Assembly: GCF_009882935.1 (NCBI RefSeq)
Contig: NZ_WTVA01000001.1
Span: 882,238-946,237, forward strand
DNA from: Sneathiella chungangensis
Lineage (GTDB): Bacteria > Pseudomonadota > Alphaproteobacteria > Sneathiellales > Sneathiellaceae
Length of the DNA: 64,000 nt
Direction: 5' to 3'
Under the pieces are notes generated by a model. The model did not search any database. It saw nothing but the letters and a program-made list of their open reading frames with translations, and had not been told where the DNA came from. Both the position numbers and the translations under genes were made by a program. How positions within the stretch are numbered: position 1 is the stretch's first letter; each line of letters opens with the position of its first letter. Shown here piece after piece: positions 30,403 through 38,871 of this stretch.

Positions 30403-30771
30403 CTAGCTCACTTTGCCTTTCTTGGGCTGCTTCATGCCAACCCAGGATTCGCCCGACGCCATCACGCAGGTGGCGCCGTTCGGCTGTGTTAAAACAATCG
30501 TCCAGGTGAGACCATCAGGGCTTGAAAATACTTCAACCACACTTCCATTCGCCGCAAGACCTGCCGCAACCGGTGCTTCCTCGAATTTGCCGCTCAAATG
30601 CTTGAGTAGTGCGGTTCGCTCAAAACATACGCTTTGAGCGGATGCGTCTGTCACTTGGAATGAAACCAACGTGGCTGCGGAAAAGAGCACGGCAAGTCCA
30701 AAAGAAATGACAGAGCGCATGCCGGCATAACGGATGAGGGAATGCCCGGTATGGTTAATAAAACTTAACAT
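30403..30771 (-). CDS. Small secreted hypothetical protein
   Basis: A 122-aa protein of unknown function. The ATG at 30771 has a strong AAGGAGGAG ribosome site five bases upstream. A signal peptide (hydrophobic core around 22-38) ends near DASAQS, giving a mature protein of about 76 residues with two cysteines (SVCFERT and ATCVMAS) likely to form a disulfide. The mature sequence contains GSVVEVFSSPDGLTWTIVLTQPNG, which looks like a beta-sandwich repeat. Similar small proteins occur widely in Alphaproteobacteria without known role. Its own terminator follows. Confidence 0.65.
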   Translation of the reverse strand: MLSFINHTGHSLIRYAGMRSVISFGLAVLFSAATLVSFQVTDASAQSVCFERTALLKHLSGKFEEAPVAAGLAANGSVVEVFSSPDGLTWTIVLTQPNGATCVMASGESWVGMKQPKKGKVS

Positions 30772-30930: not shown

Positions 30931-30967
30931 AAAATAAAGGGAAAAGGGTGATTTTCACCCTTTTCCC
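30931..30967 (-). terminator. Intrinsic terminator of the arsP-like gene
   Basis: GGGAAAAGGGTGA (30939-30951) and TCACCCTTTTCCC (30955-30967) form a perfect 13-bp stem with a TTT loop. On the minus strand a TTTATTTT tract follows, opposite 30931-30938, after the permease stop. Confidence 0.85.
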
Positions 30968-30994
30968 CAATTGCCAACGCAAGCGCGCTAAGGC

Positions 30995-32053
30995 CTAGAG
31001 AATATCCGTCACCAATTGCCAGGCGACGCCGGTGGCGATAGAGCCGGATACCCCAAGGAAGAGATAGAGGGCGAAAACCGGGCGTTTCACCAGACCAAAA
31101 ACCGCAATCGCCGCCGGGATCGATGATACGCCCCCGGCCGTCATAAAGGCCATCGCCGCCCCCTGGGACATGCCAAGGTCAATCAGTCCGCCGACAAGCG
31201 GGATGGCGGCATAGCCATTCAGATAACTCGGGATCCCGACCACGACAGCGAGCGGAATAGCGAAGATACTCTCCTGCCCCACCAGCATTTCGATAAAGCT
31301 TGTCGGAACATAGATGACCATCAGGCTTTCAAGCATGAAGGCCAGGATCAACCAGCGCCCGATAAACCAGCCGTTTGACCCCGCGGAATTAAAGAAATCG
31401 CGCGAGCGTGCCGGTTCCTGCCAGAATTTCCACTGCACATCTATCGGGCCGGAAAAGCTAACCTTTTTGCGGCATCCTGAAAGCTGCCCCTTCAAGGGAT
31501 CAAGCACCCAGCCGTACCGCTGCAAAAGGTAAACCGAAAATCCTGCGAAAAGGCCGAGCGTAATGGCAATAAGTGTCTTTCCGACCGCAAAATTAAAGCC
31601 GATACCAACCGAGGTTACGACGAAAATCTCAGGATCCATGATGGGTGACGCGATCCAGAACGCCATGACCGGGGCGAGCGGAACGCCCGCCGCAAGCAGG
31701 GACGCCACAAGCGGAATCACCCCGCAGGAGCAAAATGGCGACAGTGCGCCGACCAGAGAGGCCAGGATAATCGTCGTCGTGGGGGATCCTGAAAAGGCGC
31801 GGGCGATCAGGTTATCGGCCCCGGTTGCCGAAAAATAGGCAGCAAGACCGATCGCGATAGCAAAAAACGGCGCCATGCCGACAACCGCGTCCCAAAAAAA
31901 GGCGAGGCTAACTGGGAGGTTAGCAGGATCGATGATTGCCAGCATTAGCACCAGAAAGAGCGTCGCCAGAATGACGCGATCTGTCAGCAGAGCCCACAGA
32001 CGGGACCTGCCGTGCGAGAGACTTTGTAAAGCTTCATTAATAGACATAACCAT
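30995..32053 (-). CDS. arsP: ArsP-like organoarsenical efflux permease
   Basis: A 352-aa membrane protein of the UPF0718/YraQ permease family, with about eight to ten helices. Family motifs are SPFCSCGVIPLVASLL (104-120, with Cys108 and Cys110), followed by GVPLAPVMAFWIASPIMDPE. ArsP of Campylobacter, in this family, exports trivalent methylarsenite and aromatic arsenicals. The call as ArsP rather than general permease rests on the adjacent ArsR repressor whose cysteines match a methylarsenite-selective sensor, and on the palindromic operators between them. The start may be 32053 or the ATG at 32047. Confidence 0.75.
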   Translation of the reverse strand: MVMSINEALQSLSHGRSRLWALLTDRVILATLFLVLMLAIIDPANLPVSLAFFWDAVVGMAPFFAIAIGLAAYFSATGADNLIARAFSGSPTTTIILASLVGALSPFCSCGVIPLVASLLAAGVPLAPVMAFWIASPIMDPEIFVVTSVGIGFNFAVGKTLIAITLGLFAGFSVYLLQRYGWVLDPLKGQLSGCRKKVSFSGPIDVQWKFWQEPARSRDFFNSAGSNGWFIGRWLILAFMLESLMVIYVPTSFIEMLVGQESIFAIPLAVVVGIPSYLNGYAAIPLVGGLIDLGMSQGAAMAFMTAGGVSSIPAAIAVFGLVKRPVFALYLFLGVSGSIATGVAWQLVTDIL

Positions 32054-32062
32054 ATTTCCAGA

Positions 32063-32085
32063 TTTATCGAATTAACGAATAAATA
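32063..32085. promoter_or_regulatory. arsP promoter -10 region and second half-operator
   Basis: On the minus strand, TTGCAA (32103-32108) and TATTTA (opposite 32080-32085) are 17 bases apart and form a plausible promoter. TATCGAA at 32065-32071 repeats a half-site of the main palindrome, beside an inverted TTCG-like element (opposite 32075-32080), so a second repressor binding site may overlap the start point. Confidence 0.45.
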
Positions 32086-32113
32086 ACACCTATTCGGCGC
32101 CCTTGCAAGCCAT

Positions 32114-32135
32114 TATTTCGATAATTATCGAAATA
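32114..32135. promoter_or_regulatory. 22-bp perfect palindromic ArsR operator
   Basis: The half TATTTCGATAA (32114-32124) is followed directly by its exact inverse TTATCGAAATA (32125-32135). It lies 18 bases after the arsR stop and just upstream of the -35 of the permease promoter. ArsR-family repressors bind such AT-rich dyads, so this is very likely the ArsR site controlling the permease. Confidence 0.75.
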
Positions 32136-32152
32136 TAGGGAATCTGGTGGAA

Positions 32153-32479
32153 TCAGCTGTCTTCAGTGACGGCCTCTGTATGGGAAAGATCGACCCCCAT
32201 GCAGCATTTATCGGTGAGGAGCTGAACAAGCCCCTCGACCTTTTTGTAATTGACAAAACAGCGTAATGTCCGGCTTTCCCGTTCCTGCCGGATCAGGTCA
32301 CCGGCAATCAGATTTGAAATATGGTGGGACAGGGTTGAGGCCGGAATATCGAGAAGGCCCTGAATCTCACCAACAGAAAGCCCCTTCTCGCCCGCCTGAA
32401 CAAGATATTGAACAATCCGGAGACGGACAGGGTGACCAAGCTTGGCAAGGACGTCCGCGGCTTCTTCAGTCTCCATCAT
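32153..32479 (-). CDS. arsR: ArsR-family repressor, methylarsenite-sensor type
   Basis: A 108-aa winged-helix repressor with recognition helix region IPASTLSHHISNLIAGDLI. It has three cysteines: Cys74 (TLRCFVNY), Cys92 and Cys93 (TDKCCMG). Their spacing of 18 and 19 residues is exactly that of Cys83, Cys101 and Cys102 of Shewanella putrefaciens ArsR, which binds trivalent methylarsenite selectively. The CxC or CVCDLC motif of inorganic arsenite sensors is missing. It lies 27 bases after mipZ and may be partly read from that gene. The permease follows, behind its own operator. Confidence 0.88.
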   Translation of the reverse strand: MMETEEAADVLAKLGHPVRLRIVQYLVQAGEKGLSVGEIQGLLDIPASTLSHHISNLIAGDLIRQERESRTLRCFVNYKKVEGLVQLLTDKCCMGVDLSHTEAVTEDS

Positions 32480-32506: not shown

Positions 32507-33385
32507 TTAAAGTTTTTCGACTTTATCCTCGATACCCGGCAAATTCAGGGATTTGATCAGATGCCGAAGCTCGTGACGCGCCGCCACATGGCTCATCGAC
32601 ATTTTAACGCCAACGCCTTTCTTGTTCAAATCAAGCATTGTCAGGCCCTTGAGGAATAGTTCCCGGAAGACCACCCGTTCCCCGAAGCCGGGCGCGGCGC
32701 GAAAGGAAATGCGCGAGGCGAGCTTGCTGAGGATCTTCTCGATATGCCGCTTGTTATGGGCGTCGGTATGCGAGAGGCGATTGCGCATCACGACCCAGTC
32801 GATCTTGTGGTTGTCGATAAGCGCACGGCGCTTGCGCTGCTCCCAGACCATTTCGCTGTACCAGCTCGGTTTTTCCACTTCCAGGCTCGACCCATTGACC
32901 GTCGCCAGCAAGTCAAGGTCGATAAAGCTGTCGTTCATCGGGGTCAGCAGGGTATCGGCGAAGGAATGACCAAGCTTGGAGATAAAGCTGTCGGCGCCGG
33001 GACAATCGACAACGACGAAGTTATTTTCATAGACGAGTTCCTGCAGCGCCGCGACGAACCTTGCCCGTTCATCCGACTGCGCCTCATCCATATTCTTTTT
33101 GGGGCTGGGCTCAATCACCCGAAGCGTCGGCATCGCCAGCTGTAATTTCTTCTTGGAAATATAGCTCTGGCGGTTTTCGATATACCGCCCGAGCGTTTTC
33201 TGCTTGCCGTCCAGGTCGATCGCGCCAACCTTGAAGCCCATCGTCAGCAAGGAGATGATGATATGCATAGCGGTCGTCGACTTGCCCGACCCGCCTTTCG
33301 CATTTCCCACGACAATTATATGTGCGCGGGTGGGCTGTTCATTTTCTGGATTCGGTTCGTCCAAAGTCACTGTCACGTTCGACAC
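32507..33385 (-). CDS. mipZ: Division-plane positioning ATPase MipZ
   Basis: A ParA-like ATPase that forms a polar gradient and inhibits FtsZ away from midcell in Alphaproteobacteria. From the GTG at 33385 (292 aa, GGGGG about 8 bases upstream) the deviant Walker A KGGSGKSTT is at 30-38 within HIIVVGNAKGGSGKST; the following MHIIISLLTMGFKVGAIDLDGKQKTLGRYIENR (shown in part) is the MipZ signature. The frame is open to another GTG at 33469, which adds 28 residues without family similarity. It sits apart from parAB here. Confidence 0.93.
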   Translation of the reverse strand: MSNVTVTLDEPNPENEQPTRAHIIVVGNAKGGSGKSTTAMHIIISLLTMGFKVGAIDLDGKQKTLGRYIENRQSYISKKKLQLAMPTLRVIEPSPKKNMDEAQSDERARFVAALQELVYENNFVVVDCPGADSFISKLGHSFADTLLTPMNDSFIDLDLLATVNGSSLEVEKPSWYSEMVWEQRKRRALIDNHKIDWVVMRNRLSHTDAHNKRHIEKILSKLASRISFRAAPGFGERVVFRELFLKGLTMLDLNKKGVGVKMSMSHVAARHELRHLIKSLNLPGIEDKVEKL

Positions 33386-33533
33386 GTTTATTTCGCCCCC
33401 AGCAATTTTCACCGCCGCCAACTGGCCGACCACATTCGGCCTGATGCCGTAATTTAGTAAACCAGCCACCGTTACAAGACAAGCATCATATCGGGATCGG
33501 ATTTACAAATTATTGACAAATATCAGGAATCTC

Positions 33534-37885: not shown

Positions 37886-38871
37886 GCCGCCGGTGTTTTC
37901 AGAAGCGAGAGAAGCATGCTACGAAGCGCGCCCGGGTTCGCGAAATTCATCTCGACATCAAAGACCGCGACCATCATTTTTTCATTTGCCGCGAGCCGTA
38001 CATAGTCTTTCCGGGTCGTCACCAACGCCGCCTCCAGGGCGGCGGCCCGCTCCACCATTATCATGATTTCATCTTTATTATAAACATGATGGTCGGGATA
38101 GCTAAAGCTGTCCATCAGGTCGCAGCCGGCGAATTTCAGCGTTTCGAAAAACTTCTCTGGGCGGCCGATTCCGGCGAAGGCGACAACCTTTTCGCCGCTG
38201 AGCTCTTCGGTTGCCGGTTTCGGCACAATATGGGAAGTGAAAACATCTGTATTACTATTTAACCGGTTAAATACATTAGACTCAGTAATTCCGCCAACCA
38301 GGATGACCGCGTCGGACCGGGCAAGCCCGGCCGCAAGCGATTCCCGGAGCGGTCCGGCGGGCAGCAGCCGGCCATTCCCGACGCCGTAATCCGCGTCGAT
38401 CACAAGCAGGGAAAAATCCTTACGCAGGGACGGGTTCTGAAATCCGTCATCCATGATGACAACATCGGCGCCGGCCTTCGCTGCGGCGCGGGCGCCCGCA
38501 ACCCGGTCCGCGGCGACCCAGGTGGGCGCCGTCTCGGCCAGGATCAGGGCCTCGTCGCCGACATCGGAAAACTGATGAACGTCAAGCACGACTCGGACCG
38601 GGCCTTTCAGACGGCCGCCATATCCGCGTGTCAGGAAATGCGGTCGTTTCCCTTCCGCGATGAACAATTGCGCGATGGCGACGGCCGCCGGCGTCTTGCC
38701 CGCCCCGCCCGCAACCACATTGCCAACGCAGATCACCGGCACCTCGACGGCCTCGCTGCGCTGCATCGACCGGTGCAGCCGGCTCCCCGCGCCATAGAGC
38801 CAGGCCGCCGGCGCGAGCAGCAAGGGCAGGACGCTTTTACTCTCGCGGCGCCAGAATTGCGGGGTCTTCAT
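37882..38871 (-). CDS. lpxK: Tetraacyldisaccharide 4'-kinase
   Basis: A 329-aa kinase that phosphorylates the 4' position of the lipid A precursor. The Walker A-type loop is VGNVVAGGAGKTPAAVAI (about 50-67), followed by FLTRGYGGRLKGP and DDGFQNPSLRKDFSLLVID. The N-terminal helix (SVLPLLLAPAAWLYG) anchors it to the inner membrane. It overlaps waaA and the acyltransferase by four bases on each side. Confidence 0.95.
   Translation of the reverse strand: MKTPQFWRRESKSVLPLLLAPAAWLYGAGSRLHRSMQRSEAVEVPVICVGNVVAGGAGKTPAAVAIAQLFIAEGKRPHFLTRGYGGRLKGPVRVVLDVHQFSDVGDEALILAETAPTWVAADRVAGARAAAKAGADVVIMDDGFQNPSLRKDFSLLVIDADYGVGNGRLLPAGPLRESLAAGLARSDAVILVGGITESNVFNRLNSNTDVFTSHIVPKPATEELSGEKVVAFAGIGRPEKFFETLKFAGCDLMDSFSYPDHHVYNKDEIMIMVERAAALEAALVTTRKDYVRLAANEKMMVAVFDVEMNFANPGALRSMLLSLLKTPAA

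Follow-up and report, generated by a model that had tools for sequence, protein, structure and literature searches.

Directly behind mipZ, the genome of Sneathiella chungangensis (3.81 Mb in 15 contigs) carries a gene for an ArsR-family repressor followed by a gene for a permease of family PF03773. Comparison with related loci gives good support to the reading of this pair as an ArsR-repressed arsenical efflux cassette. We further consider it rather probable that the two genes serve the efflux of a trivalent arsenical, which would most likely be an organoarsenical such as methylarsenite.

Organization of the Locus

In the window, i.e., the whole stretch of 64,000 nucleotides that was analyzed, the genes of the locus lie on the minus strand and succeed one another, in the order of transcription, as mipZ, a 27-bp gap, arsR, a 99-bp gap, the permease gene and an intrinsic terminator. 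The two genes that the initial annotation had placed directly behind mipZ are borne out by the open reading frames and by the short mipZ-arsR gap. The features discussed below are:

32507-33469, minus strand: mipZ (PF09140, 359 bits), upstream neighbor of arsR
32153-32479, minus strand: arsR, coding for a winged-helix ArsR/SmtB repressor of 108 aa
32258-32260, minus strand: codon of Cys74, which most members of the ArsR family share and which precedes the CC pair by 18 residues
32201-32206, minus strand: codons of Cys92-Cys93, which align with Cys95-Cys96 (NCC) of AfArsR; proposed two-thiol site for trivalent arsenicals
32114-32135, no strand: predicted operator O1, a perfect 22-bp palindrome, TATTTCGATAATTATCGAAATA
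32103-32108, minus strand: predicted -35 hexamer of the permease promoter, TTGCAA, weak consensus, position conserved in the genus
32080-32085, minus strand: predicted -10 hexamer of the permease promoter, TATTTA, 17 bp from the -35 hexamer
32053-32074, no strand: predicted operator O2, TATTTCCAGATTTATCGAATTA on the plus strand, one mismatch to the motif, adjoining the translation start of the permease gene
30995-32047, minus strand: permease gene, PF03773 (ArsP_1), 350 aa from the start conserved in relatives
31724-31732, minus strand: CSC motif, permease residues 106-108, in SPFCSCGVIPL
30938-30968, minus strand: intrinsic terminator of the arsR-permease unit, 14-bp stem and T-rich tail

The permease reading frame opens at 32053 (30995-32053, minus strand), and relatives conserve the second ATG, at 32047 (MSxNEAL).

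Insertion of the Cassette Behind mipZ

In five genomes of the genus (G005, G011, G012, G015, and G019), mipZ is directly followed by a gene for a 122-aa protein, located at 30403-30771 in S. chungangensis, with neither arsR nor a permease gene in between. Because these five genomes show the site empty, arsR and the permease gene are, as judged from this comparison, a cassette that was inserted between mipZ and its former neighbor in one half of the genus. The 122-aa protein itself has no Pfam match; it is 70-80% identical in sequence and conserved 3' of mipZ where the cassette is missing. A permease 68-100% identical to that of S. chungangensis is found in 11 of the 25 genus genomes, S. chungangensis included, and 10 others of the 25 have only a permease that is 45-52% identical. 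The permease of the nearest named relative, Sneathiella sp. HT1-7, falls inside the same genus clade.

The other half of the genus harbors a non-orthologous arsR-permease module (eight loci), which combines the 45-52% identical permease with an ArsR of a different clade and, where seen, with an operator-like palindrome near ACTAGT (such as ACCATTAAACTAGTTTTATGGT) that lies upstream of arsR. Genomes of the genus carry one module or the other.

Insertion behind mipZ would place arsR on the mipZ transcript, or under an operator-free promoter, and would thereby uncouple it from its own feedback. Transcription from mipZ is the likely source of arsR expression, and ArsR is apparently not autoregulated, as judged from the operator-free sequence in front of its gene.

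Operators and Predicted Permease Promoter

The perfect palindrome reported upstream of the permease gene was confirmed; it lies between the two genes, downstream of arsR. Palindromes with arms of at least 11 occur about 0.1 times per 64 kb of simulated sequence, which makes O1 mildly surprising by statistics alone, and its acceptance as an ArsR-family operator is based not on these statistics but on its conservation in relatives. With up to three mismatches allowed, the 22-mer TATTTCGATAATTATCGAAATA has a single site in the whole 3.81-Mb genome, and it is perfect or near-perfect between arsR and the permease gene in the ten members of the genus that were examined, S. chungangensis included. 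A degenerate form of the motif has matches in 9 of 385 alphaproteobacterial genomes (reversed control, 0/385); all nine sites directly adjoin an ArsR of the same family, seven of them together with the same type of permease.

For motif and neighbor counts, 80 named loci, 634 kb in total, were collected by ArsR alignment. They contain 46 exact TATTTC-N10-GAAATA sites, versus none for three control patterns of the same size; the motif is exact in 43 of the 80 loci and present with at most one mismatch in 65, no more than 700 bp from arsR. Beside the same ArsR family, it precedes both ArsP-type permeases and ArsH in relatives, and an identical string of 22 letters, TATTTCTATTATTCTGGAAATA, precedes Klebsiella arsR-arsH (L035 and L049) and recurs in an alphaproteobacterial arsR-permease unit (L026). 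On the strength of these comparisons, the palindrome at 32114-32135 is a predicted operator of the ArsR family, to which we infer that ArsR binds.

The palindrome keeps the role of operator that the initial annotation had given it, as one of two operators, none of which precedes arsR. The other, O2, was absent from that annotation and lies 61 bp from O1. Genus orthologs keep an O1-O2 spacing of 61-65 bp with a -35/-10 pair between the two sites, and the operators would flank the permease promoter predicted from this alignment, whose hexamers are weak in S. chungangensis and clearer in some relatives. O1 is the sole exact motif site of the genome and O2 the sole further site at the arsR-permease locus; with one mismatch allowed, 14 motif sites are found genome-wide, versus 9 for the control. 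No operator before arsR or mipZ was found among the motif sites of the genome at up to one mismatch. With O1 and O2 alone at the locus, nothing therefore suggests an operator before arsR or mipZ, and ArsR seems to have a single target. The operator pair is not new in itself, since paired operators, mostly 37-62 bp apart, are common in divergent gammaproteobacterial arsR/permease units. Elsewhere in the window, a perfect 18-bp palindrome at 38256-38273, TATTTAACCGGTTAAATA, is possibly another operator.

The Sensor and its Cysteines

ArsR scores 55.7 bits against NF033788 (cut-off 55) and matches AfArsR of Acidithiobacillus ferrooxidans (PDB 6J05) in a sequence search with an E value of 3.4e-9. 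As(III)-responsive repressors of the R773 type carry Cys32, Cys34, and Cys37 (CxCxxC) in the DNA-binding domain. This motif is absent from the DNA-binding domain of the S. chungangensis protein, whose first cysteine is residue 74, and the initial annotation was correct in listing Cys74, Cys92, and Cys93 without the inorganic-arsenite motif. A third ligand cysteine of the AfArsR type, about six residues past the CC pair, is also absent, the C-terminal stretch CCMGVDLSHTEAVTEDS having no cysteine after Cys93.

The spacing of 18 and 19 residues between these cysteines had been taken as the mark of a methylarsenite sensor. This argument is not borne out, because the same C-17-CC spacing is common to all 80 ArsRs compared, including those that have a third cysteine and stand beside arsH or acr3/arsC, and it is not diagnostic of such a sensor. 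The third C-terminal cysteine, on the other hand, is distributed unevenly: it is present in 2 of 37 ArsRs paired with the S. chungangensis type of permease (35 lack it) versus 26 of 30 whose partner is arsH or an inorganic arsenic gene (Fisher p 3e-12, no correction for relatedness). The permease-linked ArsRs are scattered over several places of the ArsR tree. Absence of the third cysteine was also considered as a mark of permease units in general and had to be restricted, since 14 of the 38 ArsRs next to the gammaproteobacterial type of permease carry one.

In the ArsR tree, the S. chungangensis protein falls among gammaproteobacterial ArsRs associated with arsP-type permeases and arsH, including that of Shewanella waksmanii (L083), the nearest to SpArsR of Shewanella putrefaciens among the sequences compared; SpArsR itself was compared by its published description. 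SpArsR is described as having a two-coordinate MAs(III) site, Cys101-Cys102, and as not responding to As(III) because it lacks a third cysteine (PMC13236881, PMC11868830). In these accounts the site consists of Cys101 and Cys102 only; Cys83 was listed in addition by the initial annotation. The likeness to SpArsR that was proposed initially holds for the CC pair without a third C-terminal cysteine, as published for SpArsR, and not for the spacing. Selectivity of the S. chungangensis ArsR for MAs(III) is plausible on these grounds, and its cysteine pattern together with its genomic company would make an organic trivalent arsenical the most likely ligand. The operator is of no help on this point: it also serves a third-cysteine ArsR beside arsC/ACR3 (L043) and hence does not discriminate between organic and inorganic arsenic.

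About 57 kb upstream of the 64-kb window lies a second arsR gene (L003; contig C12, 825548-825823; 7534-7863 of L040), whose product has extra C-terminal cysteines (CCKESHMSC...NCC) and is followed by a Cys-rich protein of 176 aa.

The Permease

The permease matches PF03773 (ArsP_1) with 131.6 bits, against a cut-off of 32.3. Its CSC motif is invariant in the aligned permease clade, and C(S/T)C, placed in a membrane segment, has been given as universal in ArsP (PMC4435449). An AlphaFold model built from ten sequences (pLDDT 80.5) has CSC at a break between helices 89-102 and 107-119. In a PF03773 tree built without the ArsP proteins of Campylobacter jejuni and S. putrefaciens, the ArsR-linked permeases form two deep clades, that of S. 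chungangensis and that of gammaproteobacteria; on this tree, the permease clade is distinct from the one run by the same ArsR family in gammaproteobacteria. The designation as an ArsP-like permease is supported by the family match and by the CSC motif, with the proviso that this clade is separate from that of the gammaproteobacterial ArsR-linked permeases.

Six relatives of the permease lack CSC (they have CGVT, CGMT, or CSVS) and have no ArsR neighbor, and two of them (L054 and L055) have a LysR regulator instead; a changed substrate is suggested for these proteins.

No solved structure matched the permease by sequence, whether single sequence or profile, and a Foldseek search with the model returned nothing at E <= 0.001. 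Structural comparison of the model brought up proteins of the ion-transporter superfamily, ArsB included, at Z values of about 13-15, a range that helical proteins attain and that was therefore given no weight as evidence. For residues 20-350, elevator proteins of this superfamily and ArsB (10tp_A; Z 13.8, rmsd 5.0, 298 aligned) rank near the top, which weakly suggests that ArsP and ArsB may share a fold.

Arsenic-Related Setting

The arsR gene adjoins a PF03773 permease gene in 45 of the 80 named loci and arsH in 17, with arsM, acr3, or arsC beside others; a Rubrobacter permease 38% identical to that of S. chungangensis adjoins arsM. In Xenorhabdus and Chromohalobacter (four loci), an arsM-like gene adjoins the arsR/permease unit. 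The S. chungangensis genome has one PF03773 gene and, elsewhere, one ACR3 gene with no recognized arsR beside it, and no ArsH was found in it; inorganic arsenite may therefore have its own exporter. A search of the same genome for ArsM gave 13 weak methyltransferase matches, none over the cut-off, which were rejected since matches of this kind also turned up in each of the 14 control genomes. Without an ArsM over the cut-off, methylarsenite, if it is the substrate, would come from other organisms. A literature search for a link between Sneathiella and methylarsenite found none. What had been described as a minimal two-gene resistance to methylated arsenicals is retained as an ArsR-controlled PF03773 unit whose ArsR family and operator serve arsenic genes elsewhere, with a methylated ligand as the presumed inducer.

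Proposed Mechanism

In the model that we favor, expression of ArsR would be steady, driven either jointly with mipZ or by a promoter without an operator, and an ArsR dimer on O1 and O2, around the permease promoter, would keep the permease off. Binding of a trivalent arsenical to the Cys92/Cys93 pair would release ArsR, and the ArsP-type permease, with CSC between two helices of its membrane domain, would then export the arsenical; transcription would end at the hairpin 30938-30968. More tentatively, and with somewhat less than even confidence in the combination, the unit may represent a separate lineage of PF03773 organoarsenical exporters recruited by the same combination of ArsR and operator that in gammaproteobacteria controls ArsP-type permeases and ArsH; in Sneathiella, a feedback-uncoupled ArsR would be expressed from the mipZ transcript, and two operators would clamp the promoter of the pump.

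Alternative Ligands and Substrates

The unit might instead sense and export inorganic As(III) or Sb(III), with Cys74 and the Cys92/Cys93 pair of the partner subunit forming a three-thiol site and the permease exporting arsenite. Cys74 could indeed supply a third ligand from the other subunit and so permit As(III) binding; most of the ArsR family retains it, inorganic arsenic clusters included, and an arsR-arsC-acr3 locus (L043) stands under the same operator, for which reason use of the operator as a marker of organoarsenical units was dropped. Cys74 is, however, lacking in 6 of the 37 ArsRs paired with the S. chungangensis type of permease, and the skew of the third C-terminal cysteine toward arsH and inorganic partners (26/30 versus 2/37) points the other way, as do the ACR3 arsenite exporter present in the genome and the export of trivalent organoarsenicals by a published ArsP (PMC12607644). 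We regard an inorganic substrate as rather unlikely.

Two further readings dispense with arsenic. The CC pair could be a general thiol/redox or mercury switch, oxidized or bound to Hg(II), and the permease could remove a thiol-reactive compound other than arsenic: diamide takes ArsRs of Paracoccus off DNA (PMC9137774), and a peptide of the AfArsR site binds Hg(II) far tighter than As(III) (PMC11212059). That peptide is nevertheless ordered by As(III) and not likewise by Hg(II) (PMC11212059), and arsenic genes are the genomic company of this ArsR family throughout, so we find such a switch quite improbable. Export of Cu/Zn by an SO_0444-like permease, or membership in the SaoE family, with ArsR sensing a divalent metal, strikes us as very improbable. 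SO_0444 (NF033936, 88.2 bits) and SaoE (NF040736, 63.1 bits) are indeed the only NCBIfam models that the permease matches, and SO_0444 mutants are sensitive to Cu and Zn (PMC3219624), but both scores fall far below the respective curated cut-offs, 300 and 325, the two models give similar scores to arsenic-linked permeases, and SO_0444 is linked to a ZntR-type regulator (PMC3219624), whereas the regulator is an ArsR here and relatives stand with arsH or arsM. An organic trivalent arsenical remains our preferred substrate.

Significance and Comparison with Known Systems

Trivalent methylated arsenic is regarded as a natural antibiotic that microbes use against one another (PMC11868830). If the unit is a minimal, dedicated single-target exporter in a genome with no detectable ArsM or ArsH, it would confer resistance against neighbors, outside inorganic arsenic metabolism. 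The operator TATTTC-N10-GAAATA offers a handle for locating such units across phyla, and the third-cysteine rule a testable means of predicting whether specificity is organic or inorganic. ArsR relatives are found on many plasmids of Enterobacteriaceae, several of them from poultry or swine, and a link with organoarsenical feed additives is conceivable; on two E. coli plasmids (L050 and L051), arsR is divergent from a PF03773 permease gene with the same type of operator.

Units of this kind are already known. The SpArsR-arsP pair of S. putrefaciens 200 (Sput200_1227/1226) has the same CC pair, as published no third C-terminal cysteine, and a partner of the ArsP family. AfArsR belongs to the same family and has the CC pair where its last helix ends; its third ligand, Cys102, has no counterpart in S. 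chungangensis. ArsP of C. jejuni, an organoarsenical exporter likened here by its description, shares PF03773 and the C(S/T)C motif (PMC4435449) but belongs to an ars operon of four genes that also encodes an inorganic transporter. The arsR-arsH units of Klebsiella and related plasmids encode an ArsR 51% identical to that of S. chungangensis and also have an operator of the TATTTC-N10-GAAATA type. They differ in their target, arsH, in an ArsR that usually has a third C-terminal cysteine (CCAGGSC), and in an operator placed before arsR, which is hence presumably autoregulated. The gammaproteobacterial loci compared here have a permease of the other deep PF03773 clade, and their arsR and permease genes mostly diverge around shared operators, which can serve both genes, whereas in S. 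chungangensis arsR stands behind mipZ and operators are found only before the permease gene. The closest parallel to this arrangement is man-made: in feedback-uncoupled ArsR bioreporters, the repressor is likewise independent of the promoter that it controls, which carries a second ArsR site, the uncoupled expression of arsR giving a tunable output and the added site lowering the background (PMC3918153). Those circuits were built; that of S. chungangensis would have arisen naturally, by insertion behind mipZ. New here are the mipZ-linked, apparently non-autoregulated, single-target architecture and the separate permease clade.
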